A stretch of DNA of 64,000 nt. It comes from Caldicellulosiruptor bescii DSM 6725. GTDB taxonomy: Bacteria; Bacillota; Thermoanaerobacteria; Caldicellulosiruptorales; Caldicellulosiruptoraceae. The notes beneath the pieces are model-generated. The model worked only from the letters and a program-made list of their open reading frames with translations, ran no database searches and was not told the origin of the DNA. How positions within the stretch are numbered: the first letter of the stretch is position 1; each line of letters begins with the position of its first letter. Location: contig NC_012034.1 in assembly GCF_000022325.1 (NCBI RefSeq), positions 1,921,501-1,985,500 of the forward strand, written 5' to 3'. The position numbers were made by a program, and so were the translations under genes. Positions 16,716 to 62,091 of this stretch are shown here, piece by piece.

Positions 16716-17047
16716 TTTCCTACATAAACCCCCTAACCCCTAATACTAAAAATGGTTGGATTTTATATGAATTTTAATTTTATCTGCTAAAGCTATTTCA
16801 CAATAAAGTTTATAACACAACTTGTCACAGTTAAAGCAAGAAAATTTTATTTTGGACAGGAAAATTTTAAGCATCTTTAAAAATAGTTTTTACCATATTA
16901 CAGCAATTTTATATGTTGGTTATTACTTTTTAATATGTATGTTATAGTAAATTCGTAGCTTAAAACATATTTCAAATTATACAACTTTATCTAAGCAATT
17001 TTACCATATATTTTTATTTACTAAAATTTATGTATTCAAACAAAAAA
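16716..17047. other. Intergenic region upstream of the AraC-type gene
   Basis: AT-rich, no coding potential seen. It should hold the promoter of the AraC-type gene; TATAAA-like boxes are present but none with a convincing -35 at proper spacing. Confidence 0.5.
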
Positions 17048-21543: not shown

Positions 21544-21649
21544 ATTATCTACTAACCTCCTCTTTCTATTTTATTTTTTATTTTACATTTAGATATAATC
21601 ATTATAAATCATTATGAATAATATTTCATAAGTTCCAATAATAGCTACA

Positions 21650-26025: not shown

Positions 26026-26114
26026 CTTAAAACCTAACCCCCTCTTTTTTATGCATTTTTGCCATTATACCTCTTTATTTTTTGTACTATTTTCTAAACA
26101 CCTCCATACAGGAT
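26026..26114 (-). promoter_or_regulatory. Leader and -10 region of the GH5-GH44 gene
   Basis: On the minus strand a TATAAT (GAGGTATAATGG, about 26064-26069) lies about 40 bases before the ATG, followed by AAAAAAGAGGGGGTTAGG, the extended ribosome binding site shared by several enzyme genes here. The -35 is not convincing. An identical copy lies at 47066-47154. Confidence 0.6.
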
Positions 26115-31895: not shown

Positions 31896-32167
31896 CTTAA
31901 CCCCCTCTTTTCAATTATGGATTTAATAGTCTGAGTTGGGTAATTGAAAATTATACTTTATCTTTAGTTTCTATCACCTCACTTCTGTCTTTCGTATTGT
32001 ATTAAATTTTATACACGCTTCCTACCATGTATCATTTTATATTTTTAAGGCAAATTAATTCTATCATTATTTTGCAAATAATTATTACAATATTGCTCTT
32101 TTTTATATTAACAATTGTTGCATTTTTCCTAAACTTCTATGCAAGTAGAATCAATTTAAATTTTTGA

Positions 32168-38454: not shown

Positions 38455-41400
38455 TTATTCAGCACCAATCGCATTAGTTTTATACCATTGCCCCCATGGA
38501 GTTGGATTATTGGGGTCCCAATTGTTTACCATGTCCAAGTACCCTACATAGCTCGAATTGCCACACCAAGACCAGCTAAAAAGTCCTATCTTGTATTGTT
38601 TTGCATACCTGACAATAGCTTCCTCGTCAGGGTCACCATCTGTATGCTGATGCCCAAACTCCCCAATAACTAATGGCAGCCCTTTCTCCACAAATGACTT
38701 GATATATTCTTCTACCTTGCTCGCTGTATTGTATACACCGTACATATGAATCGAAAATACCAAATTGCGCAGCGGATCTGCTTCCATTATGCTCTGGGCA
38801 TTGTCTCTCATAGTATTAGACCAATCCTGCCCCCAGTTCGGTGCATCAACCATTATCGTGTGCTTGAACCCTGCATCCCTTAGCGCTTTTATAGCATTCT
38901 TCGTGTCATTAATCCAGTTTTGATAGTTATTGTTCCCATACGGCTCATTACCAATGTTTATTATAACAAAATCCTCATTGCCTTCTAACACACTCTTTAT
39001 CTCTTTCCAATATTCTACTGCTTGCGCCAATGAACATGCTGCACCGTCCTCACCATATCCTGTCGTGTCGTGAACTTCTAATACAATGGCTCTGAATCCA
39101 AGACTTCTTGACAATGATATAATATTTGCTACTTCACTTGCTGGTATCTTCGTCCATCGATAGCCATTACTCAACACTACCCTCACAGAGTTCATACCCC
39201 ATGACCTTATTCCTCGCAATGCCGTCTCAAGTTTATCTCTGTACCAGCAATGTGCGTGATTTGTTCCTATTAATGTGCTAGTATCTATCTTCACTATTCC
39301 ACTGCTCGGCGTTGGAGTTGGAGTTGGTGTAGGTGTAGGTGTCACTGTCGGTGCTGGTGTTGCTGTCGGTGTTGGTGTCGCTCCACTCGGCTCCTGTCCC
39401 CATACCAATACACCATCTATATACGCTGTTACCTTCACATTCTCTCCATAACTCGTCATGCTCTGCATCCATGACCAGTCATTCCCCTGATTGTAATTGC
39501 TCCAGTCACTCTTGTTAAACCTTATCTGTATCTCCCCTGTGTCTTTACCAGCCTGCAACTGCCCAGCTCCACTCTTAAATCCTATCTCTAAATAATAGTC
39601 CGCTCCACTTACGCTACTGCTCAGCTTCACAAACTTGAATGTCACATTGCTTGCTCCTATCTGTGCCCAGTCTGATATCGCACTCTGTGCCTTGTCCCCA
39701 TCTACCGTGTACCAGTACCTTATCGTTACCCTGCTTAAATCTATGCTGCTGCTTCCAGTGTTCACTACCTTCAACCATGGCCTTATCGTGTTTGTTGTGC
39801 TATTTGTCTCCTTGTTAGCATACAATACCTTTATCTGTCCACCTGCTACAGGTGTGCTGCTCGGCGTCGGTGTTGGGGTAGCAGTTGGTGTTGGTGTTGG
39901 AGTCGGTGTTGGCGTTGGTGTAGCAGTTGGTGTTGGAGTCGGGGTTGGTGTTGGTGCTGGTGTTGGTGTCGGTGTCACTGTCGGTGCTGGTGTTGCTGTC
40001 GGTGTTGGTGTCGCTCCACTCGGCTCCTGTCCCCATACCAATACACCATCTATATACGCTGTTACCTTCACATTCTCTCCATAACTCGTCATGCTCTGCA
40101 TCCATGACCAGTCATTCCCCTGATTGTAATTGCTCCAGTCACTCTTGTTAAACCTTATCTGTATCTCCCCTGTGTCTTTACCAGCCTGCAACTGCCCAGC
40201 TCCACTCTTAAATCCTATCTCTAAATAATAGTCCGCTCCACTTACGCTACTGCTCAGCTTCACAAACTTGAATGTCACATTGCTTGCTCCTATCTGTGCC
40301 CAGTCTGATATCGCACTCTGTGCCTTGTCCCCATCTACCGTGTACCAGTACCTTATCGTTACCCTGCTTAAATCTATGCTGCTGCTTCCAGTGTTCACTA
40401 CCTTCAACCATGGCCTTATCGTGTTTGTTGTGCTATTTGTCTCCTTGTTAGCATACAATACCTTTATCTGCCCGCCTGCTACAGGTGTGCTGCTCGGCGT
40501 CGGTGTTGGTGTTGGCGTTGCTGTTGGTGTAGCAGTTGGTGTTGACGTTGGTGTTGGTGTAGGTGTCGGTGTTGGTGTAGCAGTTGATGTCGGTGTTGGA
40601 GTCAGTGTTGGTGTTGGTGTTGGTGTTGGGGTTGGGGTTGAACTTGACGAACCCTCTGGTTCTTGTCCCCATACCAGCACGTTACCTTCATAAGCTGCTA
40701 TGAACTTATTTTTACTAAGTTCTTTTGTTAATCCTGCATAAGATGGGTCATTAGTTGGATCCCATGGAACACCTTGTGGCACAGATATCTTAAATTGAGC
40801 TTGTTTTTTGTGTTCTACTTCCCCACCTGGATATATTTTTGTTCCTGTAAAATCAACTAATATATAGTAAAGGTTCTTTGATGCATTCCATACGTATGGT
40901 CCAGATATTTTTCCACCTTCTGAATAATATGTCTCTACTTTAACAACATCAGGACCATACCCAGCCTTGATTAACTCACTTAGGTCAATAAAATACTTAA
41001 AGTTTAGATTATCTGTGACTCGAGGCGGCCATCCCGTTCTGTTATAAATGTATGAAATTATTTCGGTATAGTTTGTACCCTGTGAATTACCAAACTTGGA
41101 TTCAACAAAAATTTCATCATTAGTTGGCTTTTCGATAGCTTTGAAATTAGGTATTGGGTCTCCTCCATACATAAGGTACATTTTTGCCAGAGCACCTACA
41201 ATACCAGCATTGTAGTCACAAGCCACCTCGTTTTGAACATAGTCAGTAATATCATCATTGTAACTATCATCAGAGCCTGGTCCGCCTACTAATGCACCAT
41301 AAAGTATGTGTCGATGATATTCAGGTATTCGCATACTGTTCGCCCATGAACTGTGTGCATTTCTGTGATGTGGATGTTGTGGATAATTTTGCCCAAATCC

Positions 41401-42564
41401 TACCAAAAAGCTTCTTCCTGTTGAACCTAATGCATAGTTAATCTGACTCTCACCAAATTTTAGATAAGCTGTTCGCTTATTTTCTGGACATCCTGACCAA
41501 TCTGCATAAACAAACGCTAAGAAAGCTGCAGTTGTGGCATACCTAAGTGAGCCCCACCCTGTTATCCATGCAAGACCTTTAGGTGTATAGGTTATGTTAT
41601 ATGTCCAATGATCAAGATTTCTTTCAACAGCACCTTTATATATGTCTTTATTAGTAATTTTTGCTAAAAGCAATATTGCTCCGTATCTTACATCGTCCCA
41701 GCACTGTGTCCATGTATTTGTGCCACCGGCATATTCTGCCATAAGTGCCTCAGCTTTATCTAAATATGATTTGTCATTTGTCGCAAGATATAACCACACT
41801 GCTGCCCAACCAAGATCATCAATAAAACCACCTGATGTGTAAAAGCCTGTTGCTGCGGTATACCCTGCATCACTACGAGTTCTATCGGCAAAATCAAAGA
41901 GTACCATCGCATGCTGCAAATATGTGTCTGCCTTTTGACTATTTCTTTCACGTATGACGATTGAAGCTGCAGCTAAGGATGCTGCTGTTTCTGCAACAAC
42001 CGAACTTGCTGGATTATTTAAGTCACACTTGTATGCTGGTCGTTTCATTTGCATAACTTCTGCTGGACCCCAGAAGTTATGATCTTCAATTGGGTCACCA
42101 ACTTGATAGTAGTATACATACTTTGATGGATGGCATTTTACAAAGTAGTCGTTTACCCATTCAATCTGGTTAAGTATATGTTCAAGCTGACCACTTTTCT
42201 CAAATGCTGCTTTGTACTCATAAACTGCCCACGAAAGCATTGATGCACTGTATGACATTGGTAGATTAAACTTTACATGGTCGCCCGCATCATGCCAGCC
42301 ACCAGTAAGATCTAAACCTACATCTTTGCCATCATTTAGACCAGAATCCCCGCGCCAGTTGTTACGGATCCATGATGGTAGTTTACCTGACATCTGAAAT
42401 TCATAAAACATGATCGCTTTTTGAAGAGCTTCACCATAGTTAAAGGTTGTTGCTGCTTTTACTTCACTGTTATTATATCCTGAAAATAGAAAGAAAACCT
42501 GCAATAGAAATACCATAGCAACACAAAATGTAATCATTTTTATTGCTCTTTTTAGTTTAAGCAT
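38455..42564 (-). CDS. Secreted cellulase/mannanase GH9-CBM3c-CBM3-CBM3-GH5
   Basis: 1369 aa. Signal peptide about 1-38. GH9 processive endoglucanase about 40-475, with nucleophile-side Asp pair in [26 protein letters not shown] and the acid Glu in [15 protein letters not shown] fused CBM3c (about 480-640, from [16 protein letters not shown]) is the type that assists GH9 catalysis rather than anchoring. Pro/Thr linkers and two CBM3 anchoring modules follow. A C-terminal GH5 mannanase-type domain (about 1090-1369) is virtually identical to the N-terminal GH5 of two other proteins here and ends with a stop directly after NAIGAE. The ATG follows GGGGGTTAGG. It pairs cellulose and mannan attack. 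Confidence 0.95.
38462..39296 (-). repeat. 835-bp copy of the GH5 mannanase module (C-terminal position)
   Basis: Appears identical to 25058-25892 (offset 13404) and to the corresponding part of the GH5-GH5 gene. Here the module is the last domain of its protein; in the other two genes it is the first, directly after the signal peptide. Confidence 0.88.
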
Positions 42565-42820
42565 TTTTAATCCTAACCCCCTTTTTTGATCTGATAGTTA
42601 ATTTTTAATTAATCGTATTGGATGTTATGATTTCGAAACTCATACTTTGTTCCCACAAATAAATGTTTAATAGTTACTTAATATAATTACATATATTTCT
42701 ATCTGTTTTAGATCACCCCTTCTTTTTTTAAATTTACTTGTTTATAACTTCAACTTTGCAGTCCTTTACTGTCCTCAAATCTTTCTTATATATCTACAAA
42801 TTCCCATTTACCGTATTTTA

Positions 42821-45800
42821 TCATTTTGCGGCTGGAACTGGCGCTGGTTCATTATTGTTGTAGTATATTGTAATATTAATGTTTTTCCCATTTGTACCTA
42901 AGGGTCGCTTGTGATCTAATCCAACAAACCTACCTTGACTGTCTTGCCAAAGAGCCGGCTTTAAAAATGAGTATTTTTTTTCATCCCATGTCGTAAAATC
43001 GTATCCAACCATACCTCCAGTGTCACCTGAGTTAGCATTAAAGCACCAAAATGTGTGATGAATATGATTCTCTATAATATAATCTCGTAGATATCTCATC
43101 CACTTTTCGTTATCAGCTCCATCAAGATAACCACCCCATTCACCTATCAGCAGCGGCGCAATGTTTTCTTCCATGATGTAAGCCCAATTCGGACGCCAAC
43201 AATCTTGTAGTAAAGATTCTTTTGTGAAGCCTGGATAAAACCACGGCTGCTGGTAAACAGAGGGTCCGTAATCATGAGGTGAATATACTACTTTATTTTG
43301 ATATTTACCCAGATTAATAGGATACTTTTTAACACCTCGCAAGTTACCGCCCCACCATGTTGAATAGTAATCGCTATAGGATTTTGATGTCCATGTAACG
43401 TCATCTTTTGGATACGCTTCAATTCCTTCTATTACAATAAGAAGGTTTGGATTTATATTTAGTATACGTTTCGCACATGTTTCAGCCGCATATTTCCAAT
43501 TATTAATATCTGTTGAATTATCCCATTTTGCAAATGTTGTGTCTTGCCATGGTTTTCCATGTGGCTCATTTTTTAGGTCAAAAGCTATAATAGTATCATC
43601 ATTTTTATATCTATTTGTAATCCACTCACACGCCTTATAAAAATCCTCTGGAGTAAATTTATCATCATACCATACTGGATAGATATGTCCCATTGCGTCT
43701 GTTTTTATGCTGTGAATATCCAACATAATTTTCAAACCAACTTCTTTACATATTTGTACAACTATGTCAAATACTTCAAGACTGTTTTTGCCCTCAAGCT
43801 CTGGATTAACGTAGTAGTTTATATTTGGTTTTGGATAAATACCTTGCGACCAGTTCAGTATAATCTCGGCTGATATTGGAATTCTTAGCAAATTAAAGCC
43901 TCTATTGGCTATTTCAGCTAGAGTATCTTTTAGATTGCAACTCCATACACCATCAAAAACATTTGTACCTGTATTGTATCCAAACCAGTTAATACCTGTT
44001 AACCATACCGGTTTACCATCTTTATCAACTATTTTATTACCACTTACATAAAGCCAATCATCATTTGTATCATCAAGAATACTCGGTGTTGATGTTGGAT
44101 TTGGAGTTACTGTTGGCATTGGTATTACTGTCTGCACCGGTGTTGGTGTCGGTGTCGGGGTTGCCGTTACTGTTGGGGTCGGGGTTGGTGTTGGTGCTGG
44201 TGTTGCTGTCGGTGTCACTGTCGGTGCTGGTGTTGCTGTCGGTGTTGGTGTCGCTCCACTCGGCTCCTGTCCCCATACCAATACACCATCTATATACGCT
44301 GTTACCTTCACATTCTCTCCATAACTCGTCATGCTCTGCATCCATGACCAGTCATTCCCCTGATTGTAATTGCTCCAGTCACTCTTGTTAAACCTTATCT
44401 GTATCTCCCCTGTGTCTTTACCAGCCTGCAACTGCCCAGCTCCACTCTTAAATCCTATCTCTAAATAATAGTCCGCTCCACTTACGCTACTGCTCAGCTT
44501 CACAAACTTGAATGTCACATTGCTTGCTCCTATCTGTGCCCAGTCTGATATCGCACTCTGTGCCTTGTCCCCATCTACCGTGTACCAGTACCTTATCGTT
44601 ACCCTGCTCAAATCTATGCTGCTGCTTCCAGTGTTCACTACCTTCAACCATGGCCTTATCGTGTTTGTTGTGCTATTTGTCTCCTTGTTAGCATACAATA
44701 CCTTTATCTGTCCACCTGCTACAGGTGTACTGCTCGGCGTCGGTGTTGGGGTAGCAGTTGGTGTTGGTGTTGGAGTCGGTGTTGGCGTTGGTGTAGCAGT
44801 TGGTGTTGGGGTCGGGGTTGGTGTTGGTGCTGGTGTTGCTGTCGGTGTTGGTGTCGCTCCACTCGGCTCCTGTCCCCATACCAATACACCATCTATATAC
44901 GCTGTTACCTTCACATTCTCTCCATAACTCGTCATGCTCTGCATCCATGACCAGTCATTCCCCTGATTGTAATTGCTCCAGTCACTCTTGTTAAACCTTA
45001 TCTGTATCTCCCCTGTGTCTTTACCAGCCTGCAACTGCCCAGCTCCACTCTTAAATCCTATCTCTAAATAATAGTCCGCTCCACTTACGCTACTGCTCAG
45101 CTTCACAAACTTGAATGTCACATTGCTTGCTCCTATCTGTGCCCAGTCTGATATCGCACTCTGTGCCTTGTCCCCATCTACCGTGTACCAGTACCTTATC
45201 GTTACCCTGCTCAAATCTATGCTGCTGCTTCCAGTGTTCACTACCTTCAACCATGGCCTTATCGTGTTTGTTGTGCTATTTGTCTCCTTGTTAGCATACA
45301 ATACCTTTATCTGTCCACCTGCTACAGGTGTACTGCTCGGCGTCGGTGTTGGGGTAGCAGTTGGTGTTGGTGTTGGAGTCGGTGTTGGCGTTGGTGTAGC
45401 AGTTGGTGTTGGGGTCGGGGTTGGTGTTGGTGCTGGTGTTGCTGTCGGTGTTGGTGTCGCTCCACTCGGCTCCTGTCCCCATACCAATACACCATCTATA
45501 TACGCTGTTACCTTCACATTCTCTCCATAACTCGTCATGCTCTGCATCCATGACCAGTCATTCCCCTGATTGTAATTGCTCCAGTCACTCTTGTTAAACC
45601 TTATCTGTATCTCCCCTGTGTCTTTACCAGCCTGCAACTGCCCAGCTCCACTCTTAAATCCTATCTCTAAATAATAGTCCGCTCCACTTACGCTACTGCT
45701 CAGCTTCACAAACTTGAATGTCACATTGCTTGCTCCTATCTGTGCCCAGTCTGATATCGCACTCTGTGCCTTGTCCCCATCTACCGTGTACCAGTACCTT

Positions 45801-47065
45801 ATCGTTACCCTGCTCAAATCTATGCTGCTGCTTCCAGTGTTCACTACCTTCAACCATGGCCTTATCGTATTTGTTGTGCTATTTGTCTCCTTGTTAGCAT
45901 ACAATACCTTTATCTGTCCACCTGCTACAGGTGTGCTGCTCGGCGTCGGTGTTGGTGTTGGCGTTGCTGTTGGTGTAGCAGTTGGTGTTGACGTTGGTGT
46001 TGGTGTAGGTGTCGGTGTTGGAGTCAGTGTTGGTGTTGGTGTTGCTGTTGGTGTAGCAGTTGGTGTCGGTGTTGGTGTTGAAGTAGGTACTGAAGAGGCA
46101 CCAATCGCATTAGTTTTATACCATTGCCCCCATGGAGTTGGATTATTGGGGTCCCAATTGTTTACCATGTCCAAGTACCCTACATAGCTCGAATTGCCAC
46201 ACCAAGACCAGCTAAAAAGTCCTATCTTGTATTGTTTTGCATACCTGACAATAGCTTCCTCGTCAGGGTCACCATCTGTATGCTGATGCCCAAACTCCCC
46301 AATAACTAATGGCAGCCCTTTCTCCACAAATGACTTGATATATTCTTCTACCTTGCTCGCTGTATTGTATACACCGTACATATGAATCGAAAATACCAAA
46401 TTGCGCAGCGGATCTGCTTCCATTATGCTCTGGGCATTGTCTCTCATAGTATTAGACCAATCCTGCCCCCAGTTCGGTGCATCAACCATTATCGTGTGCT
46501 TGAACCCTGCATCCCTTAGCGCTTTTATAGCATTCTTCGTGTCATTAATCCAGTTTTGATAGTTATTGTTCCCATACGGCTCATTACCAATGTTTATTAT
46601 AACAAAATCCTCATTGCCTTCTAACACACTCTTTATCTCTTTCCAATATTCTACTGCTTGCGCCAATGAACATGCTGCACCGTCCTCACCATATCCTGTC
46701 GTGTCGTGAACTTCTAATACAATGGCTCTGAATCCAAGACTTCTTGACAATGATATAATATTTGCTACTTCACTTGCTGGTATCTTCGTCCATCGATAGC
46801 CATTACTCAACACTACCCTCACAGAGTTCATACCCCATGACCTTATTCCTCGCAATGCCGTCTCAAGTTTATCTCTGTACCAGCAATGTGCGTGATTTGT
46901 TCCTATTAATGTGCTAGTATCTATCTTCACTACTCCATCATTAGATGTAGCCGCACCAACTTTGGGTAAATTCGTTACATTTGCTATAAACAAAATGTTC
47001 AATAAAAAAACAACTGTACATAGTATACTCAACCATTTCTTCCCCATTTTTGTTTTTACTCTCAT
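42821..47065 (-). CDS. Secreted mannanase/cellulase GH5-CBM3-CBM3-CBM3-GH5
   Basis: 1414 aa. Signal peptide and N-terminal GH5 mannanase-type domain (about 42-330; Glu residues in [10 protein letters not shown] and [11 protein letters not shown]) are the same as in the GH5-GH44 protein. Three CBM3 modules follow, separated by Pro/Thr linkers; the second and third CBM3-linker units repeat as a 603-bp tandem. The C-terminal GH5 (about 1045-1414) is of the endoglucanase type, beginning [20 protein letters not shown], with catalytic Glu in [12 protein letters not shown] and [13 protein letters not shown]. It should combine mannan and cellulose hydrolysis. Leader and -10 region are identical to those of the GH5-GH44 gene. 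It lies between GH9-GH5 and celA, all on the minus strand. Confidence 0.95.
44733..45935 (-). repeat. Tandem 603-bp CBM3-plus-linker repeat
   Basis: Within the GH5-GH5 gene the unit ending at about 45332 and the one ending at about 45935 match base for base at a 603-base offset (compare 44508-44948 with 45111-45551). They encode the same CBM3 and the same linker. It is an in-frame tandem duplication that adds a whole binding module and should be prone to expansion or loss. Confidence 0.85.
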
Positions 47066-49187
47066 CTTAAAACCTAACCCCCTCTTTTTTATGCATTTTT
47101 GCCATTATACCTCTTTATTTTTTGTACTATTTTCTAAACACCTCCATACAGGATTTTAGCGAGGTAGCACACCATACTTATAGTTGTGCTACCCCGCTAA
47201 ATTTTCATTTACCTACTTAATTATTGATTGCCAAACAGTATTTCATATGTTGCATTAGCTATTGCTATGTCGCACTGTGCCCAGAACCTGTGATATCTGA
47301 ACTCAGGTGCCTGCCCTGACTTGTATGCCGCCTCTAACTTCGGCCAATCAGGATCTTGTTTATACTTGCTCCTTATGTCTATAAACTTAACTCCACTCTT
47401 TATTACATCTCCATTCGGCATCTTCCCTATCCATCCTGCCGGTATATATACCTCTTGCTCAAAGAACCTCTTGTAGTCCGCTCTCTTCTCTGGCGCTGAC
47501 AATCCCTTCTCATCCCTGTACAACTTCCACATCCTGTCCAGCAATTCCTTCGCTAAATTCTTCGCTCCCTCATCAAATACCCCATACTTCTTCGTCCCTG
47601 CACTATAGTACAACAACGCATTCGCCAATGACGCTGTTATTCCTAAGTCAGTACCATAGTCCACTACCTTAACATGTAAGTTGCTATTCCCTGTATACGC
47701 CCCGTTCCATGTATCAGGTTGTCCGCTCCAATCAAGCGTCGACGGTATCGCAAACGTACCATCACTATTCAACTTCACTACACTCTTAACCCAGCTTACC
47801 CACTTCTCAAGCAGTGCTCCTGCGTCCTTATCTCCTGTCACATAGTAATACTCCGCTACCCTCTGCATCGACCATGCCTGGAATCCAAACCATGTGTTGC
47901 TCCCAGGATCATGATATACCGGATTCGGTTCATATGCCATTCCATAAAATGTTGCTGTCCCTGCTGGATACTTCTCATATCTGCCATTCCATGAATTTGT
48001 CGCGCCTCCTGCTATCGCTCCCTCCGCTGACTGTAACCACCTGTAAAATTCTATCTGCCTCTTCAAACTCTTTGCCCAGTCACTCGCTCCATTCGGCGAC
48101 TTCGGCTTCATATCACTATCATTCGCTAATGCCCATGCCGCCATCGGATTCTGATATCCAAAGTGCACATGGCTGCTCCCTATCTTCCATGACCATGCTC
48201 CATCCAATGCTCCACCCCATGCATAATACCATGATAGCAGATAATGTGCACTGTCATACCCCGTTCCTCCAGCCGCATTCTTATCCTGACATCCTAATGG
48301 CTTGAAATACTTGTCAAACATCGCATACCTTAAATAGTCTCCCATCTTCGCTGCCTTCGCTACATAGCTGCTTATCTCATTAAACTTACCTTGCTCCTTC
48401 GCCCATACTTTCGCCCAATAAGTAGCCTGAATAGCTCTCGCATCAGCATCTGGTGCATCCGTATATCTCCACTGCTTCGAATAGTTCTGATCCTTAATAA
48501 ACAAATCTAAAAATCCATTCGGTCCGCCCCACTTGAATTCCTCCCAGCTCGGATGCGGCACCGTCTCCCATACAGACTCCTCAGGCCCTCTCTGGAACGT
48601 GTTGATAAATGATGCCCGACTTACTCCGTCCCCTCTCTTGCCATATCCATACCAGTTGTCTACGTCCATCAACCAGTGCATACCATACATTAATGTGCTA
48701 CCATATGTGCTCACAAGTTCATTATGCAACGGGTCTTTGCCAACAGGTACATTAAACTCCAACGGCGATGGATACTTGTCCGGTGTCTCCCACTCCCCTG
48801 CGTATGTCGCTGGCTTGTTAGGATCATATGACCTCATCGGCTGATCTTCCGCTGATGGTATCATATACTTCTCTAATGTGTCCCATGCTGTCTTAAATTT
48901 GCTCCAGTCACCCGTTAACTTACCATACACTGCCTCTAACCATACATAGTACGAAAATGCCTCACTCGTGGTCAAATGACCATAATCAGGTGCTTCGCAT
49001 ATCAATGTCTCTACCGAATGATATGGTATCCCATCCTGGTTAAAATACCCGTTCGCAGGATCATGTATCTTGTTCCATAACCACATAAACCTCTGCCCAT
49101 ATTCGCCAAGCACACTCGGTGTGCTGCTCGGCGTCGGTGTTGGTGTTGCTGTTACTGTTGGTGTCGCGGTTGGGGTTGGTGTTGGCG
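46041..49187 (-). repeat. 3147-bp duplicated block, copy 2
   Basis: Counterpart of 25001-28147; it covers the N-terminal half of the GH5-GH5 gene, its leader, the hairpin after celA and the celA GH48 module. Confidence 0.88.
47155..47201 (-). terminator. Hairpin after celA
   Basis: Same 17-bp hairpin as at 26115-26161, without a T run, 20 bases after the celA stop. Partial read-through from celA into the GH5-GH5 gene is therefore plausible. Confidence 0.7.
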
Positions 49188-52100
49188 TTGGTGTTGGTGT
49201 AGCAGTTGGTGTTGGTGTCGGGGTTGGAGTTGGTGCTGGTGTAGGTGTCGGTGTCACTGTCGGTGCTGGTGTCGCTGTCGGTGTTGGTGTCGCTCCACTC
49301 GGCTCCTGTCCCCATACCAATACACCATCTATATACGCTGTTACCTTCACATTCTCTCCATAATTCGTCATGCTCTGCATCCATGACCAGTCATTCCCCT
49401 GATTGTAATTGCTCCAGTCACTCTTGTTAAACCTTATCTGTATCTCCCCTGTGTCTTTACCAGCCTGCAACTGCCCAGCTCCACTCTTAAATCCTATCTC
49501 TAAATAATAGTCCGCTCCACTTACGCTACTGCTCAGCTTCACAAACTTGAATGTCACATTGCTTGCTCCTATCTGTGCCCAGTCTGATATCGCACTCTGT
49601 GCCTTGTCCCCATCTACCGTGTACCAGTACCTTATCGTTACCCTGCTCAAATCTATGCTGCTGCTTCCAGTGTTCACTACCTTCAACCATGGCCTTATCG
49701 TGTTTGTTGTGCTATTTGTCTCCTTGTTAGCATACAATACCTTTATCTGCCCGCCTGCTACAGGTGTGCTGCTCGGCGTCGGTGTTGGTGTTGGCGTTGC
49801 TGTTGGTGTAGCAGTTGGTGTTGACGTTGGTGTTGGTGTAGGTGTCGGTGTCACTGTCGGTGCTGGTGTCGCTGTCGGTGTTGGTGTCGCTCCACTCGGC
49901 TCCTGTCCCCATACCAATACACCATCTATATACGCTGTTACCTTCACATTCTCTCCATAATTCGTCATGCTCTGCATCCATGACCAGTCATTCCCCTGAT
50001 TGTAATTGCTCCAATCACTCTTGTTAAACCTTATCTGTATCTCCCCTGTGTCTTTGCCAGCCTGCAACTGCCCAGCTCCACTCTTAAATCCTATCTCTAA
50101 ATAATAGTCCGCTCCACTTACGCTACTGCTCAGCTTCACAAACTTGAATGTCACATTGCTTGCTCCTATCTGTGCCCAGTCTGATATCGCACTCTGTGCC
50201 TTGTCCCCATCTACCGTGTACCAGTACCTTATCGTTACCCTGCTCAAATCTATGCTGCTGCTTCCAGTGTTCACTACCTTCAACCATGGCCTTATCGTAT
50301 TAGTTGTGCTATTTGTCTCCTTGTTAGCATACAATACCTTTATCTGTCCACCTGCTACAGGTGTGCTGCTCGGCGTCGATGTTGGTGTTGGCGTTGCTGT
50401 TGGTGTAGCAGTCGGTGTCGGAGTCGGGGTTGGTGTTACTGTCGGTGTTGGTGTCGGTGTTGGTGTAGCAGTTGATGTTGGTGTTGGAGTCGGTGTTGGT
50501 GTTACTGTCGGCGTTGGTGTTGGTGTTGCTGTTGCTGTTGGTGTCGGTGTTGCTCCAGAAGTTCCTGGTTCTTCACCCCATACTTTCACATCTCCATCAT
50601 AAAGTGGAATATATTTAGTTTTAACAACTGAACCACTTGAAACTCCCTTTATATCCTGGAAAGAATAGTCGTTAGAATTATCCCACTGTACATTCTGTGG
50701 TGCTGCAATTCTGAATTGGACTTCTTTCTTATATTTGTCTTGACCACCTGGATAAATCAATGTGCCAGTAAAGTCTACTAAAATGTAGTATATATTTTTG
50801 CTTGCATCCCATACATAAGGTCCACTTACTTTTGCACCTTGATTATAATTGGTGCTCAAGGTTAATTGATTTGGTGAATATCCTGCTTTAATTAATTCAC
50901 TCAGGTCAACAAAATATCTAAATTTAAGCTTATCTGTTGCTCTGGCAGGCCAACCACTTTGGTTATTAACTATCGCTTTAATTTCAATAAAGTTAGTTCC
51001 GGATGCATTTATACCAGCTTCAACAAAGAATTCGTCGTTTGTTGGAGTTTCAATAGCTTTGAAATCTGGTATTGGATTCCCACCGTACAATTGATACATC
51101 TTTGCTAATGCACCCACAAACCCTGCATTATAATCACATGCAACCTCATTGTTCACATAGTTACTTATATCATCTGTGTAGCTATCATCAGAGCCTGGAC
51201 CACCAACAAGCGCTCCATATAATGTATGTCTGTGATATGAAGGTATACTCTGACTGTCTGCCCATGAGCTATGAGCAGTTCTGTGATGCGGTCTCTTTGG
51301 TGGATTTGTACCAAATCCAACAACAAAGCTTCTTCCAGCTGAGCCTAACGCATAATCAATCTGGCTTTCTCCAAATTTTCTATATATTTCTTTTTTTGTG
51401 CTTGGACAGCCAACCCAATCGCTATAAACAAATGCCAAAAATGCTGTAGTTGTTGCATATCTCAACGAACCCCATTGATCAAGCCATGCTAATCCTTTTG
51501 GTGTATACTTAATCCTTTCGCCATTGTATCCTGTAGTCCAGTAATCTAAGTGACTTTCAATAATTTGTTTATAAATATCCTTACCGGTAATTTTTGCTAA
51601 CAATAATGCCGCTCCATTGTGAACATCATCCCAGCAATGAGCCCACTTGTAGTCAATTGTGTTACTGCCAGAAATTTTGGGCCAATTTTGGACATATGAC
51701 TCAGCTTTTGTGAGATATGTTGAATCATTTGTTGCCAAATACAACCAAACTGCTGCCCAAGAAAGCTCATCATAGAAACCGCTCCATGAATTGTAATATC
51801 CATTTGCAGCAGTGTAACCTGCATCGCTTTTTGTTACTTCTGCAAACTCATATAATTCTTTTGCATGTTGCAGATATGTTGCTGCTTTAGTGGGATTTCT
51901 GTCTTTCAAAACAATTGAAGCTGCTGCTAAGGAAGCTGCTGTCTCTGCTACTACTGTAGATCCAGGACTGCTTTGGGTGACCTTAAATGAAGGTCTCTCC
52001 ATTTGCATAACCTCAGCAGGTCCCCACCATGCATGATCTTTACTTCCATCCCCAACCTGGTAATAGTATACATATTTGCTTGGATGACATTTTACAAAAT

Positions 52101-52500
52101 AGTCATTAACCCATTCGATTTGATTTAAGATATGTTCCAATTGACCACTCTTGACAAATGCATCTTTGTACTCATACACTGCCCATGACAACATTGTACC
52201 AGTGTATGACATTGGAAGGTTAAACTTGACGTGATCACCTGCGTCAAACCAACCACCTGTCAAATCAAGCCCATTGTCTTGACCATCCTTTAATGCTGAG
52301 TCGCCACGCCAGTTGTTGCGTACCCAATTCGGAAGTTTACCAGACATTTGAAATTCGTAAAACATGATAGCTTTTTGTAAAGCTTCCCCATAGTTAAACG
52401 AACCAGCCCTAACCTCTTGCCATGGTTTAACTCCATATACCACTCCTAAAATAAATATGAAGGTTACAACCATGGCAATAATTCTTCTGTAACGCTTCAT
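47221..52500 (-). CDS. celA: CelA: secreted cellulase GH9-CBM3c-CBM3-CBM3-GH48
   Basis: 1759 aa, the length I recall for C. bescii CelA. Signal peptide about 1-32. GH9 about 34-480, with the Asp pair in [15 protein letters not shown] and the acid Glu in [16 protein letters not shown]3c about 485-650 ([16 protein letters not shown]). Pro/Thr linkers, two CBM3 anchoring modules, then GH48 about 1130-1759 with [17 protein letters not shown]9 works as processive endoglucanase and GH48 as reducing-end exoglucanase on the same chain; CelA is the main secreted cellulase of the genus. AGGAGG is present 9 bases before the ATG and a strong sigma-A promoter lies immediately upstream. A c-di-GMP riboswitch with its own promoter lies about 0.55 kb further upstream. 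Confidence 0.97.
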
Positions 52501-52538: not shown

Positions 52539-52567
52539 ATTATATAACTAAAATGGATAGATGACAA
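52539..52567 (-). promoter_or_regulatory. Sigma-A promoter of celA
   Basis: On the minus strand TTGTCA (complement of 52562-52567), a 17-base spacer and TATAAT (complement of 52539-52544). It predicts transcription from about 52532, a leader of about 32 bases, and the AGGAGG just before the start codon. Confidence 0.85.
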
Positions 52568-52990
52568 TTGATTTTTTTTGTCTAATTTGTTTGTTTAATT
52601 GTCTAAAATGCAGTACAGTTTAAATATTTTCGATTACTTAGATATACTCATATTTCTGATATTTTTTTTATTGCAAAATTATAGTATAAATGCCTCTAAT
52701 AATTTGTATTATTTTGCTCTATTGAAAGTCAAAAAAATACAACATGATATTAAGTTGTTAAGTGGAAACCACATAAATTTATTCGACTTGAAAATAATTG
52801 TTATATTTTATTGATTAAATTAGGAAGTGATAATAAATTTTTTGTTGTTCATACAAGGCTAAACATTGGCTGCCAATCAATGGCAGCCAATGCCTAGTGT
52901 AATGTATGTTAAAAGAGGGGGTTAGGGGATAGCTTTTTCAGTGTTACAGAAGAATATACATAATTATTTATTTTTTTAATTTTTTTACAT
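52568..52990. other. Non-coding stretch between celA promoter and riboswitch terminator
   Basis: No ORF of note on the minus strand. On the plus strand at about 52911-52928 is AAAAGAGGGGGTTAGGGG, almost the leader/ribosome-binding sequence that precedes several enzyme genes, but no start codon and gene follow it. A perfect hairpin is listed separately (52864-52892). Confidence 0.55.
52864..52892 (-). terminator. Perfect 12-bp GC-rich hairpin downstream of the riboswitch
   Basis: Arms CATTGGCTGCCA (52864-52875) and its complement (52881-52892) with a 5-base loop. On the minus strand it is followed by TTTAGCC, a weak T tract. It could terminate a short RNA that starts at the riboswitch promoter, or be a structured leader element. 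Confidence 0.5.
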
Positions 52991-52995
52991 GTACT

Positions 52996-53026
52996 AAAAA
53001 AACGGCGCCTTGCCAGACGCCGTTTT
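52996..53026 (-). terminator. Intrinsic terminator of the celA-upstream riboswitch
   Basis: On the minus strand an AACGGCG...CGCCGTT stem is followed by seven T. It begins 29 bases after the riboswitch P1 stem, the usual expression platform of a transcription-controlling riboswitch. Confidence 0.88.
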
Positions 53027-53054
53027 GAACCACTCATCAAATATTTTACACCTC

Positions 53055-53154
53055 GAGTAGTTTCGGCAGCCTGGCAACCATAGGAAGTTTTTCTTCCGAC
53101 AGGCCCATGGCTTTGCGCCCCTGCCTTTCGACAGGTTTGCCCTTTCGACTACCC
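53055..53154 (-). ncRNA. Cyclic-di-GMP-I (GEMM) riboswitch upstream of celA
   Basis: On the minus strand the hallmark segments of the class I c-di-GMP aptamer appear in order: AAAGGGCAAACC, a GNRA-type loop (GTCGAAAGGC), GGGGCGCAAAGCC, ATGGGCCT, and the second arm ending GGTTGCCAGGCTGCCG. A P1 stem can form between GGGTAGT and ACTACTC at the ends. The tetraloop/receptor arrangement and the GCGCAAAGCC core are diagnostic. It is preceded by a consensus promoter and followed by a terminator. No gene starts directly behind it; the next minus-strand ORF is celA, 490 bases past the terminator. Confidence 0.93.
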
Positions 53155-53203
53155 ACTTCATATCCAATTTTTTTATGTTTAATCCTACTTTCTTTTAGAA
53201 TGA

Positions 53204-53232
53204 ATTATATCATTAACTCAGTAATATGTCAA
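53204..53232 (-). promoter_or_regulatory. Consensus sigma-A promoter of the riboswitch
   Basis: On the minus strand TTGACA (complement of 53227-53232), 17 bases, TATAAT (complement of 53204-53209): a perfect match to both boxes with ideal spacing. Predicted start about 53197, some 40 bases before the aptamer. Confidence 0.9.
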
Positions 53233-53282: not shown

Positions 53283-53645
53283 TCAGAATATACCTGCATT
53301 ATAGAGGCTACAACTAATCAAAGACTTTAATGCTCTTCGTAACTGGTTAACTTTACCATTTGCTATAACTGGTATATTATTCCACTTTTCCGTACCTTTT
53401 CGTACTCTTTTCCCGTTCTTTATAATTCCTTTTGCTATTTCTTTAACTTCTTGCCTTTCTGCTTTCTTGGCTTTTATCTTCTCTAAATATACATTTATAA
53501 GTTCAAAACCATTGTATTTTAAACTCAATAACTTTACCATGGTCTCCGCTATATCTTCGCTCCATCCTCTTGGTCTTGAACTCATCCTCTCTGCTAATAC
53601 ATGACTTACATTCCCTTCTGCATTACATCCTGCTTATGTCACAAG
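53283..53645 (-). pseudogene. ISLre2/UPF0236-family transposase, C-terminal fragment
   Basis: On the minus strand CNAEGNVSHVLAERMSSRPR followed by GWSEDIAETMVKLL is the conserved C-terminal signature of UPF0236/ISLre2 transposases. The frame is open from about 53645 to the stop at 53283. The N-terminal three quarters of the protein are absent. It marks an old insertion just upstream of the celA riboswitch. Confidence 0.8.
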
Positions 53646-56927: not shown

Positions 56928-58877
56928 TTATTTAACAACAATACTTCTTCTTACTACCCTATACAAAGTACCGCTTTGAATTGTATCCCTTCGGCTGGAA
57001 ATTGTTACAGGCGGAACATATCCAGTACTATTTGTTACCTGATTCTGAATGAGTGAACTCGGTGAGCCATATATTAATATAACACCATCAAATGGACTCC
57101 CGCCCGAACTATTTATATTAAGAGTATTGCCTAACGCAATCAATTGACCATTTAATATTCTCGTTCCCACTGAAATAGTAATGTTGTTTCTTGCAAAAAC
57201 ATGCAATTGGAGTGGACTTGGAACTGGTGAAACGCCCATGCTTGCTAACCTGTTTCGAACCTCAACTTCAATTTCACCAGCATCACAATTTTCTCCAATA
57301 ACTACAACCTGCGGAGGTGACTTTGAAATATCTGCAGCACTGTCAATTGATGCTGGTGGAACTGAGTCATGGGGTGTTATCGATGGTATACTTGTACTAT
57401 TAGGAAAATTAAAATTTCTTATATCACTTATTATTTGAGGTAAAGGTGGATATGGAATAGAAGGTGCTACATTTATAATTCCACCTGAATTAACAATCCG
57501 ACTGTAGTCAGGCGGCATCCTCGTCACAATGGTTGCGCCATTTTCTATTACCAACGTAGTTGGATTGTTCAAAAACTGAATCGAATCGCAATATACTACC
57601 GCACCAGATTTTATTGTAACTGTCCCCTGATCCTGTATTCTTAACGCACCCCTGATTACTCCTATTTTCTTTATTACAACATCTACCGCATTTGCTATAC
57701 TACCTTTAACTATGACATCCCCATCGCAGTATAACTCATCGAACTCATATCTACCTCTACCATATAATTCCGCATTTCCCCCCACGTACGTTATACCCAT
57801 CTGCAAGCTAATATTTCTATCTCCAACACCTGTTCTTCTCAAATTTGATCTAATATAAGTTACATTGTTAACTTTTACATTGTCTTCGCGAACTTGTGGA
57901 TTACCGTTCACACCCAGTGATAACTCACCCATTACCACTATATTATTAATGTCAGTTTGCAGACCACCATGTGATTGTAAATCACCACCTGTATGCACAT
58001 TCCCACCTATTATGGTAAAGTTGACATTTGCCACAAAGTTCCCATTAGTATATAGTGCATAGTCGAATAAGTTAAATATTGAAGACGCAAGAGTTGTAGT
58101 TCCGATCGATATAACACTTTCCAGACTATTAGGGCTACTTGAAAGTATTTTAAAGTCTAATCGCAATGTTCTTTTTACTTCTTTATCTGACGAAGTTACA
58201 GCTCTTGTTTTAGAAACATCAATGTAAATGGTATAACCGTCAGGTAGAGAACTTCCTGTCGCACCTGACCATGCATTAACTGTAATACCATCAAATTTAT
58301 ATCCAGTCAAACCCTCATAATGGGGTTTTATCCATAACTGCACCAAGTCAGATATCTTCTTAAACTCCATCAACGGTAAAGATTCTACCTTTACAGAAGC
58401 ATCACTGCCCACATCATTCATAAACCGACTTACCTCATCCTTTATTATCGCTTCCATACCTTTATACACCTTGTCCTTTGCTACATCTTGAGTTATCCTC
58501 CCGTGTCGCAAATCATCTAATATCTTCCCCGGTTCGTAACTCTCGTCCCCCAATAACAATCTTACTCTACCAGGACTTGTATTTTCCAGTGTCCCATCCG
58601 CTTTGTAATAATAATCATATGCTATATCCTTTGCAGCCTCCAATAATTGATTAAAATAATATAAAAACTCCTCTGCCGCACTTTCAGCTCCATAACCTGT
58701 TGCAGATTTCTGATATATAGATGTGCTCTGGTTCAGCGATGCTAACACAGCCGACATCGTCCCCAGTAATACCGTGCTCAAAATGGCAATTATTATTATT
58801 ACAACAATTAAGGTGCTTCCTCTTATATTAGTTTTTAGTATTTTTGGATTAAAAATAATTCTATTTATTTTAATCAT
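56928..58877 (-). CDS. Tapirin-type cellulose-binding adhesin 1 (riboswitch-controlled)
   Basis: About 649 aa. The start is preferred at 58877 (MIKINRI), 6 bases after AAGGGAG; an ATG at 58910 has a weaker site. After a short basic leader the sequence has a pilin/PilX-like membrane segment (G, then STLIVVIIIIAILSTVLLG), a helical region (ATGYGAESAAEEFLYYFNQL), and a beta-rich part to about residue 240. A right-handed beta-helix-like C-terminal half follows (NFTIIGGNVHTGGDLQSHGG, DELYCDGDVIVKGSI, GALRIQDQGTVTIKSGAVVY). This architecture and the position between celA and type IV pilus genes match tapirins, Caldicellulosiruptor surface proteins that bind cellulose. The c-di-GMP riboswitch and its terminator end 78 bases upstream of this start. 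Confidence 0.85.
   Translation of the reverse strand: MIKINRIIFNPKILKTNIRGSTLIVVIIIIAILSTVLLGTMSAVLASLNQSTSIYQKSATGYGAESAAEEFLYYFNQLLEAAKDIAYDYYYKADGTLENTSPGRVRLLLGDESYEPGKILDDLRHGRITQDVAKDKVYKGMEAIIKDEVSRFMNDVGSDASVKVESLPLMEFKKISDLVQLWIKPHYEGLTGYKFDGITVNAWSGATGSSLPDGYTIYIDVSKTRAVTSSDKEVKRTLRLDFKILSSSPNSLESVISIGTTTLASSIFNLFDYALYTNGNFVANVNFTIIGGNVHTGGDLQSHGGLQTDINNIVVMGELSLGVNGNPQVREDNVKVNNVTYIRSNLRRTGVGDRNISLQMGITYVGGNAELYGRGRYEFDELYCDGDVIVKGSIANAVDVVIKKIGVIRGALRIQDQGTVTIKSGAVVYCDSIQFLNNPTTLVIENGATIVTRMPPDYSRIVNSGGIINVAPSIPYPPLPQIISDIRNFNFPNSTSIPSITPHDSVPPASIDSAADISKSPPQVVVIGENCDAGEIEVEVRNRLASMGVSPVPSPLQLHVFARNNITISVGTRILNGQLIALGNTLNINSSGGSPFDGVILIYGSPSSLIQNQVTNSTGYVPPVTISSRRDTIQSGTLYRVVRRSIVVK
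58143..58808 (-). repeat. 666-bp tapirin N-terminal duplication, copy 1
   Basis: Apparently identical to 60505-61170 (offset 2362). It covers the membrane segment and the following 200 or so residues. The flanks, including the first codons and the whole C-terminal half, are unrelated at DNA level. Confidence 0.9.
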
Positions 58878-58954
58878 ACTATTCACTCCCTTTGTGCTTT
58901 TATTTTTCATTAATAACTCATTAACCCTTTAAAACCCCAAATAACAATGGATAT

Positions 58955-59307: not shown

Positions 59308-61236
59308 CTACCTTGTAACCATGTTTCGTCTTAAAATGTCATATAAAGTTTTCCTTTCAATAGCATCATTTTGTGTGAATATTGCTTGAGATGGTTGAAT
59401 ACCTGTATTACTCTCAATGTCTTGCTGAATGGGTGGACTTGGCATTTGATACTTCAACGTGAGTCCTGCATATGGATTTCCCATAGTGTTAATGTTAAAA
59501 GTACTACCAAGAGAAATAATTGAACCATTCATAATGGTTAAGCCACCACCCACAAATGTAATGTTTCCTCTTGAAATTAAATGCAACTGGAGTGTTGAGA
59601 AATCAACAATTGGTAATCCCAATCTGGCTGATATCTCTATTCTTGCTTCATTATCATTAATATAGGATTCACCATATATTACTATCTGCGGAGGCGTCTG
59701 AGATGTATCTGCAGTACTGCCAAGTTGGTTACTACCTACACTATCAGCTGGCAATGGTGTTGTTAGCAAACCACTTGTATAATCCCGATTTCTTATCTCA
59801 TCTATCTCAGCTGGCGTAGGTGGATATGAAAAAGAAGAAGAATACAAAATTGTCCCACCATTATTTTGTATTGATATTATCGTGGAGGCATCGGGAGTTG
59901 TTGCTATATATAATTTTGCTCCATTTTCAAGAATCAAGCGGGAACCATTGCGTACTACCAATGAATTACAGTAAAGTACACTGTTATTTTGCAAGGTAAC
60001 TGTTGCCCCATCAGTAATCTCAAGTCTTCCTGTTATACTTGCTAATCCAGAAATTACCATATTCACTCCAGACCCAGCTAAAACGACATTATTATCTGTA
60101 AACAATTGATTAAATTCATAATTTCCTGCACCATATAATTGTATATCCTGAACAACATAAATTATTCTTGCTCGAATATTTGTCAAACGCGGATATGTTC
60201 TGTTTGTTTTTAAGTTTTTTTCTACATAAATTATGTTTCTCACATTTATATTATTGTCTCTACATCGCGAGTCACTATCTTGGTTTATCACCATCTCACC
60301 TTTTGATATCAAATTATCAATATTAAACGCCGCACCACCGTCTATCGTTAGGTCACCACCTGAATACACACTTCCATTTTCGACAGTAAGGTTTTTGTTA
60401 GTATTAAGAGCACCCTTTGAAAATATTGCGTAATCAAGCGGTGATGAAGGAACTGTAGTTGGTGAAGGATTCAAGATTATGTTTTGTGAACTTCCACTGT
60501 TACCAAGTATTTTAAAGTCTAATCGCAATGTTCTTTTTACTTCTTTATCTGACGAAGTTACAGCTCTTGTTTTAGAAACATCAATGTAAATGGTATAACC
60601 GTCAGGTAGAGAACTTCCTGTCGCACCTGACCATGCATTAACTGTAATACCATCAAATTTATATCCAGTCAAACCCTCATAATGGGGTTTTATCCATAAC
60701 TGCACCAAGTCAGATATCTTCTTAAACTCCATCAACGGTAAAGATTCTACCTTTACAGAAGCATCACTGCCCACATCATTCATAAACCGACTTACCTCAT
60801 CCTTTATTATCGCTTCCATACCTTTATACACCTTGTCCTTTGCTACATCTTGAGTTATCCTCCCGTGTCGCAAATCATCTAATATCTTCCCCGGTTCGTA
60901 ACTCTCGTCCCCCAATAACAATCTTACTCTACCAGGACTTGTATTTTCCAGTGTCCCATCCGCTTTGTAATAATAATCATATGCTATATCCTTTGCAGCC
61001 TCCAATAATTGATTAAAATAATATAAAAACTCCTCTGCCGCACTTTCAGCTCCATAACCTGTTGCAGATTTCTGATATATAGATGTGCTCTGGTTCAGCG
61101 ATGCTAACACAGCCGACATCGTCCCCAGTAATACCGTGCTCAAAATGGCAATTATTATTATTACAACAATCAAAACAGACCCGTTAACCTTTTTAACAAA
61201 TAATCTTTCCTTTAACCCGATAAATTTTTGTGGCAT
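59308..61236 (-). CDS. Tapirin-type cellulose-binding adhesin 2
   Basis: 642 aa. After 19 unique residues comes the same membrane segment and helical/beta region as in tapirin 1 (about 20-235). The C-terminal half is a different beta-helix-like domain (LTVENGSVYSGGDLTIDGGA, TGRLEITDGATVTLQNNSVL, GSRLILENGAKLYI). Both proteins share a Pro-rich segment and QPPQIV/TPPQIVIYGE-type motifs, so the halves are distant homologues. The start lies 6 bases after the stop of the prepilin-like gene, within GGGGGTAAAAGGAGATG, so it belongs to the pilus operon. Expected on the cell surface, possibly with the pili, binding cellulose. Confidence 0.85.
   Translation of the reverse strand: MPQKFIGLKERLFVKKVNGSVLIVVIIIIAILSTVLLGTMSAVLASLNQSTSIYQKSATGYGAESAAEEFLYYFNQLLEAAKDIAYDYYYKADGTLENTSPGRVRLLLGDESYEPGKILDDLRHGRITQDVAKDKVYKGMEAIIKDEVSRFMNDVGSDASVKVESLPLMEFKKISDLVQLWIKPHYEGLTGYKFDGITVNAWSGATGSSLPDGYTIYIDVSKTRAVTSSDKEVKRTLRLDFKILGNSGSSQNIILNPSPTTVPSSPLDYAIFSKGALNTNKNLTVENGSVYSGGDLTIDGGAAFNIDNLISKGEMVINQDSDSRCRDNNINVRNIIYVEKNLKTNRTYPRLTNIRARIIYVVQDIQLYGAGNYEFNQLFTDNNVVLAGSGVNMVISGLASITGRLEITDGATVTLQNNSVLYCNSLVVRNGSRLILENGAKLYIATTPDASTIISIQNNGGTILYSSSFSYPPTPAEIDEIRNRDYTSGLLTTPLPADSVGSNQLGSTADTSQTPPQIVIYGESYINDNEARIEISARLGLPIVDFSTLQLHLISRGNITFVGGGLTIMNGSIISLGSTFNINTMGNPYAGLTLKYQMPSPPIQQDIESNTGIQPSQAIFTQNDAIERKTLYDILRRNMVTR
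60505..61170 (-). repeat. 666-bp tapirin N-terminal duplication, copy 2
   Basis: Counterpart of 58143-58808; no difference found on comparison by eye. Confidence 0.9.
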
Positions 61237-61242
61237 CTCCTT

Positions 61243-62091
61243 TTACCCCCTCACCATAAATTTATAATCTCTCACTTTTCTATTCCTTTTTTCGTCCCAA
61301 ATCTCCATTGTTACTTCAAAAAGCTGATGGTAAAACTTTGAATCATTGTACGAAATAAATCTTACAGTGGTCCTCTGCGTTGTAAAATTAATAGCAGAAC
61401 TTGCTGTCGGACTTGGTAGAGGAGATGCCGCAGAACTTACTGAAAAGCTCTTAGACCATACCTCTAAACTTTGAGCGGTATAATTTGATGTAAGAACACC
61501 TCCACTCATCTCAAATACGCCATTAATATTACAATTAACCGCAGATGAGTTGTCAATAAAATATATCTTAAAATTGGGTCTTTCAATTATTAATGGTATA
61601 TTATTGAATTTGTACTCTGCCCGGTTCACTCCGCTTGTTTCTTTATAAACTTCTATATTCACTATCCCGCTTAAACCTGATGGAAGAGAAAACCTATAGT
61701 CATATCTTACTCCACCATATGTTGCATCATAAACTTTTTGATATACTGATACTGTATTTGAAGAGTCAGCTGTAAGAATTAAGTCGAAATCACTTTCTAA
61801 CCTTTTAACTGTATACTTTACTCTATATCTATCATTGCCATATTGCAGTTCATTGCCACTATAATCTGGCAAAAAATATACTGTATCTGTAAAATGACTA
61901 ACATCATTTGCCATTTCAGCATACATTTTTTCCATTGCTTTGTTCAAAACCTGAGCAATATCCATATTCTCTTTTGACTTTGAGGTTACCCTTATCGACT
62001 GGTTAAATGCAATTCCAATTGGAACCAATATTATAGCAAATATAGCAACAGCAACTATAGCCTCTATTAACGAAAAACCCTTTAGCTTCAT
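61243..62091 (-). CDS. Type IV prepilin-like protein (minor pilin)
   Basis: 282 aa. The N-terminus MKLKGFSLIEAIVAVAIFAI has a canonical type III prepilin signal: short basic leader, Gly/Phe cleavage site, Glu at +5 and a hydrophobic helix. The rest is a beta-rich globular part of about 240 residues, long for a major pilin, so a minor pilin (PilV/PilW-like) is likely. It is co-transcribed with pilM-pilN-pilO upstream (11 bases after pilO) and tapirin 2 downstream. It probably helps initiate or tip the pilus; a partner role with the tapirins is inferred from the spacing. Confidence 0.88.
   Translation of the reverse strand: MKLKGFSLIEAIVAVAIFAIILVPIGIAFNQSIRVTSKSKENMDIAQVLNKAMEKMYAEMANDVSHFTDTVYFLPDYSGNELQYGNDRYRVKYTVKRLESDFDLILTADSSNTVSVYQKVYDATYGGVRYDYRFSLPSGLSGIVNIEVYKETSGVNRAEYKFNNIPLIIERPNFKIYFIDNSSAVNCNINGVFEMSGGVLTSNYTAQSLEVWSKSFSVSSAASPLPSPTASSAINFTTQRTTVRFISYNDSKFYHQLFEVTMEIWDEKRNRKVRDYKFMVRG

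Follow-up and report, generated by a model that had tools for sequence, protein, structure and literature searches.

A c-di-GMP-I riboswitch upstream of celA in Caldicellulosiruptor bescii as a candidate OFF switch for an antisense RNA against the cellulase locus

Between the tapirin and type IV pilus genes of Caldicellulosiruptor bescii and celA, with which the glucan degradation locus begins, lies a riboswitch with no gene immediately behind it. The question is what this riboswitch controls. The window is the 64,000-nucleotide stretch of the C. bescii DSM 6725 genome that was analysed; all positions refer to it, and the features of interest are collected in Table 1. A complete GEMM-I aptamer, a consensus promoter and an intrinsic terminator had been predicted here, and all three are found. 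The covariance-model score of the aptamer is far above the gathering score (E-value 1.4e-14 in the whole window, 1.7e-16 in the 760-base interval), and the promoter matches the consensus at every position. The terminator was not listed by the automated terminator scan and is plain by eye in the sequence. The original prediction of an ORF-free gap of about 490 bases is also confirmed, as celA starts approximately 495 nt past the terminator and no open reading frame of at least 80 aa was found between the two. The separate promoter proposed for celA is present as well. Just upstream of it, at 52605-52568, is the strongly conserved sequence ACAATTAAACAAACAAATTAGACAAAAAAAATCAATTG, likely a regulator binding site.

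Table 1. Window positions of the riboswitch, the conserved block behind it and the sites complementary to the block
Feature	Position	Strand	Remarks
Promoter TTGACA-17-TATAAT	53204..53232	-	12/12 consensus; sole 12/12 match within 2.2 kb
c-di-GMP-I aptamer, class A	53062..53151	-	RF01051, 81.9 bits vs gathering score 35
Antiterminator 5' strand = aptamer 3' end TTGCCAGGCTGCC	53065..53077	-	Complementary to terminator 5' arm
Apical antiterminator helix AACTACTC / GAGTGGTT	53028..53062	-	Also engages P1 3' strand
Intrinsic terminator AACGGCGTC-TGGCAA-GGCGCCGTT-T5	52996..53024	-	Read from sequence; kept in 7 genomes
Terminator 5' arm GGCGTCTGGCAA	53010-53021	-	Sequence
Anti-translation-start block AUUCUUCUGUAACACUGAAAAAGCUAUCCCCUAACCCCCUCUUUU, 45 nt	52911..52955	-	Single copy; complementary to locus translation starts
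Hairpin 2 CTAGGCATTGGCTGCC-N7-GGCAGCCAATGTTTAG	52859..52897	-	Single copy in same 7 genomes as block
Proximal celA promoter	52539..52567	-	11/12 consensus
celA (GH9-CBM3-GH48)	47221..52500	-	Pfam
celA target: SD + codons 1-7	gene 47221..52500	-	Duplex -34.6 kcal/mol at 37 °C, -8.6 at 75 °C
SD of gene 42821-47065	47073..47088	-	16/16 complementary to block
SD of gene 38455-42564	42572..42587	-	15/16 complementary
SD of gene 26181-31895	31898..31911	-	14/14 complementary
SD of gene 22141-26025	26033..26048	-	16/16 complementary
SD of gene 17107-21543	21552..21565	-	13/14 complementary
Site upstream of gene 14334-16715	16730..16740	-	GGGGTTAGGGG, 11/11, different register

The aptamer upstream of celA, designated class A, spans the complete RF01051 model (1-87). 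The GAAA tetraloop, the receptor side, the two-helix junction and the closing helix P1, with a stability of -8.8 kcal/mol, are all present in the alignment. The ligand could be 3',3'-cGAMP instead of c-di-GMP: the aptamer position that we take to be 20 is G here, whereas the G003 ortholog has A. Genomes of the genus contain 6-11 GGDEF matches each, so a supply of c-di-GMP is plausible. Transcription from the riboswitch promoter is predicted to start near 53197. Just upstream of this promoter, at 53283-53585, an ISLre2 transposase is represented by a C-terminal fragment (NF033529, E 7e-13, under the family cut-off), and a comparable fragment is present in genome G002.

Aptamers of the c-di-GMP-I family are present in all 12 genomes of the genus (30 in total), and the window's genome (2.93 Mb, 3 contigs) contains three, which represent classes A, B and C. 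A synteny comparison across Caldicellulosiruptor genomes, as proposed with the original prediction, places the class A element directly upstream of celA with no intervening gene in seven of them (G000, G002, G003, G006, G008, G009 and G011). This adjacency survives replacement of the tapirins, the NHL gene or the upstream flank, and the element is not an orphan. It is missing from the other five genomes, among them G007, with GH48 genes and cellulases elsewhere. The class A aptamer is 97-100% identical among the seven genomes. By comparison, identity at celA four-fold sites is 70-75% in most pairs and reaches 91% between the two closest genomes; in distant pairs the middle part of the leader is 67-72% identical. 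The riboswitch promoter is retained in six of the seven genomes; in G002 the class C promoter takes its place. The riboswitch before celA in that genome (L034, near rc position 11322) is a recombinant in which the class C promoter and P1 5' side are joined to the class A 3' side. P1 is lost there (-0.4 kcal/mol), in this genome only among the seven, so ligand control should be weakened and may be gone.

The class B aptamer (59115-59026) precedes the tapirin gene 56928-58910, and the class C aptamer lies just left of the window before a gene for a 139-aa secreted protein. Class B is identical to class A at 86 of 87 positions and has unrelated flanks. Aptamers are near-identical across riboswitch classes and species, which, given the unrelated flanks, suggests gene conversion or a very strong constraint on the aptamer. 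A GGDEF gene adjoining the class C riboswitch (G000:C1:1918638-1919109) is broken by stops or a frameshift, and its orthologs are intact in several relatives. In class D (L021 and L028, in G010 and G009), the sequence after P1 can pair with the Shine-Dalgarno (SD) sequence AAGGAGG of a secreted protein gene and there is no terminator; this class seems to act on translation.

In the class A leader, the terminator and an antiterminator are mutually exclusive, and the antiterminator draws on aptamer sequence. A second antiterminator helix is formed by the segment just before the terminator, which pairs with the P1 3' strand. The apical helix is maintained in the seven genomes with changed pairs, and CTGGC ends the terminator 5' arm in classes A, B and C despite their differing stems. 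When the transcript extends as far as the terminator loop, its minimum free energy structure is the antiterminator in 24 of 24 leaders from three classes, at both 37 and 75 °C. With the full terminator present, the energies of the two states differ little in most of these leaders. When the platform was shuffled in six leaders, between 0 and 3 of 200 shuffles were equally good. Because the antiterminator uses the 3' end of the aptamer, a ligand-stabilised aptamer should mean termination. The folding models point to a transcription-terminating OFF switch.

Behind the terminator, a 45-nt block is nearly invariant in the seven genomes while its surroundings diverge. A 22-nt part of it, GCTATCCCCTAACCCCCTCTTT, is invariant and occurs once in each. 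The block is absent from the other five genomes of the genus and from one other genus searched in the order. It has no match in the genome collection, which may lack close relatives of this genome. Its single copy rules out a dispersed repeat. A role as part of a small peptide is rejected, as the frame is broken by a 1-nt indel and the peptide MYILL-stop is not conserved. The reverse complement of the block reads as a translation start. A mere inverted duplication of the celA start is unlikely, since the 3' half suits the SDs of other genes better and the middle suits the codons of gene 26181-31895. No other promoter with at least 9/12 consensus positions occurs on the minus strand from 53204 to the block, which makes the riboswitch promoter the expected source of block transcription. 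The riboswitch is thus followed by a non-coding effector region without an open reading frame, as in RNAs of the EutX/Rli55 kind. Hairpin 2, farther downstream, has an invariant core, a variable loop and a covarying lower stem, with no U run. It is a possible 3' end or stabilising hairpin of the read-through RNA.

Three registers of the block match translation starts in the locus. The 5' part is antisense to codons 3-7 of celA, with 17 nt exact where CelA starts MQRYRRI. A second segment, AGCUAUCCCC, pairs with codons 3-6 of gene 26181-31895 (AGGGGTATAGC); these codons are identical in the seven genomes and the later ones vary. The 3' part is antisense to SDs of locus genes (Table 1). A block-complementary sequence, GAGGGGGTAA, also occurs at 61244-61258, upstream of the start of the tapirin gene 59308-61236, and is kept in six of the seven genomes; by this match, the tapirin may belong to the same regulon as the cellulases.

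The pairing is specific to the locus. In the seven genomes the extended SD motif RAGRGGRGGTTAG has 27 occurrences, always at a locus SD or inverted in the block (once per genome); the other five genomes of the genus contain it once. A ranking of 150 translation starts, drawn from the window and nine further regions, by pairing energy with the block puts locus enzymes or the tapirin 59308-61236 in the top nine places. Locus genes also top the ranking in the six further block-bearing genomes and do not lead it in G007, which has cellulases and no block. The mean locus-minus-background energy is -14.0 kcal/mol, versus -4.5 +/- 1.5 for shuffled blocks, and the block has an AUC of 0.985, versus 0.78 for the anti-SD tail of 16S rRNA. 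The 16S-tail control and the shuffles together rule out generic strong SDs as the source of the complementarity. Conserved pairing with SD and start regions therefore exceeds both chance and a generic anti-SD effect, as is characteristic of an antisense sRNA. At 75 °C with accessibility costs included, seven of eight targets have energies of -3.2 to -11.6 kcal/mol, compared with a best of -3.6 and a median of +0.3 for the background. The pairing of the celA SD alone is weak under these conditions (-1.4 kcal/mol); the strength of celA as a target comes from the second seed.

The aptamer, the switch pairing, the conservation and the locus-specific complementarity were computed directly, and a mechanism can be proposed that connects them. 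Transcription would begin near 53197. At low c-di-GMP, the 3' end of the aptamer would pair with the terminator 5' arm, and polymerase would read through into the block. The resulting RNA would pair with celA and at least five further locus genes at their SD and start regions, thereby blocking translation. At high c-di-GMP, the bound aptamer would retain its 3' end, the terminator would form, the block would not be made and the cellulases would be translated. From the computed features we infer ligand binding in the cell, the existence of the read-through RNA, its action in trans (or additionally in cis, within a long celA transcript) and the repression itself. An anti-SD block in the RNA behind the terminator means that this RNA would silence celA rather than express it. 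Since the block matches other cellulase genes too, a regulatory RNA is favoured, and the multi-gene fit favours action in trans over action in cis.

This model, an antisense RNA that targets the cellulase locus and is gated by a c-di-GMP-I OFF switch, is given a probability of roughly 0.58. The fuller version, in which one riboswitch-gated RNA acts in trans on the SDs of celA, at least five other locus genes and perhaps a tapirin, so that c-di-GMP releases a brake on crystalline cellulose degradation, has about an even chance. Cellulases would be expected to rise in surface life, and such a brake agrees with this. The C. bescii glucan degradation locus responds to cellulose and xylan and has no known dedicated regulator (PMC8579813), and the model fits this published response. 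Several observations count against it. In the predicted read-through RNA, part of the anti-SD segment is taken up by pairing (unpaired probability 0.47-0.74 at 75 °C), and compensatory changes are almost absent, because neither the block nor its targets vary much. The missing U run of hairpin 2 and the loss of P1 in G002 also weigh against the model. The originally suggested link of c-di-GMP to cellulose degradation is supported; its sign, a double negative, had not been foreseen.

An alternative that we consider unlikely is that the block acts in cis only. Read-through would then continue into celA as a long untranslated transcript, the block would fold onto celA's own SD and start codon, and there would be no targets in trans; read-through would perhaps also interfere with the proximal celA promoter. 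There is no strong terminator between the block and celA, the celA SD pairs with the block in cis with a probability of 0.59-0.95 at 75 °C, and the 5' half of the block matches celA codons alone. However, the 3' part fits the SDs of other genes (16/16) better than that of celA, one segment matches codons of gene 26181-31895, and the motif is locus-wide.

It is improbable that the riboswitch promoter is a plain c-di-GMP-gated second promoter for celA and the genes downstream, with a long translatable leader in which the block is incidental. The conserved order of promoter, riboswitch and celA agrees with such an arrangement, but the leader would contain an invariant anti-SD block. In addition, the longest mapped 5' UTR in C. 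bescii carbohydrate operons is 329 nt (PMC8579813), so no start near 53197 has been assigned to celA, which argues against the riboswitch start as its main start. About as improbable is a DNA operator, in which the block and the shared GRGGGGGTTAG motif are bound by a transcription factor and the riboswitch makes only a short terminated RNA. The locus has no known dedicated regulator, unknown motifs have been proposed at celA and celF (PMC8579813), and an operator could work in either orientation. Yet internal genes have the motif exactly at their SDs, and coding codons, too, match the block, in three registers. The remaining reading, that the riboswitch's former gene (originally suggested to be perhaps another tapirin) was lost and the remainder is drift, has no gene within 490 nt and the adjacent ISLre2 fragment in its favour and is very improbable, as it is already contradicted by sequence conservation: the aptamer (97-100%), the terminator and the block are conserved across seven species, compared with about 72% at neutral sites, and celA is the next gene in 7/7 element-bearing genomes. 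The lost gene thus falls away from the three options first offered, and a c-di-GMP-gated long celA leader and a free-standing regulatory RNA both stand as candidates.

The element is a concrete candidate regulator of the glucan degradation locus, tied to c-di-GMP. If the antisense reading is true, deleting the 45-nt block would be a simple route to more cellulase from an industrial thermophile, and we know of no earlier case in which a riboswitch gates an antisense RNA directed at several ribosome-binding sites together. Among the papers searched, none joins Caldicellulosiruptor, c-di-GMP and a riboswitch.

Among related systems, the class B and C riboswitches, which in the same genomes precede genes for a tapirin and for a small secreted protein, have a near-identical aptamer and share the antiterminator logic. 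Unlike class A, most of them are directly followed by a coding gene. In Vibrio cholerae, Vc1 lies before gbpA, which encodes a chitin-binding protein, and ties c-di-GMP-I control to growth on an insoluble polysaccharide; its target is an adhesin gene in cis, and an antisense block is not described there (PMC3971182). Cdi1_3 of Clostridioides difficile, before flgB, belongs to the same aptamer family, and c-di-GMP causes premature termination (PMC7602753). It controls a downstream coding operon in cis, whereas here there is no coding gene within the likely RNA. The nearest precedents are EutX of Enterococcus faecalis and Rli55 of Listeria, trans-acting sRNAs controlled by B12 riboswitches (PMC7602753). 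They too have an OFF riboswitch, whose ligand stops transcription ahead of the effector region in an RNA that is not translated, and they share the double-negative logic, in which the RNA is made without ligand and the pathway is repressed (PMC7602753). In EutX and Rli55 the ligand is B12 and an ANTAR element sequesters EutV (PMC7602753), whereas here the ligand would be c-di-GMP, the effector a candidate antisense block and the targets extracellular cellulases.
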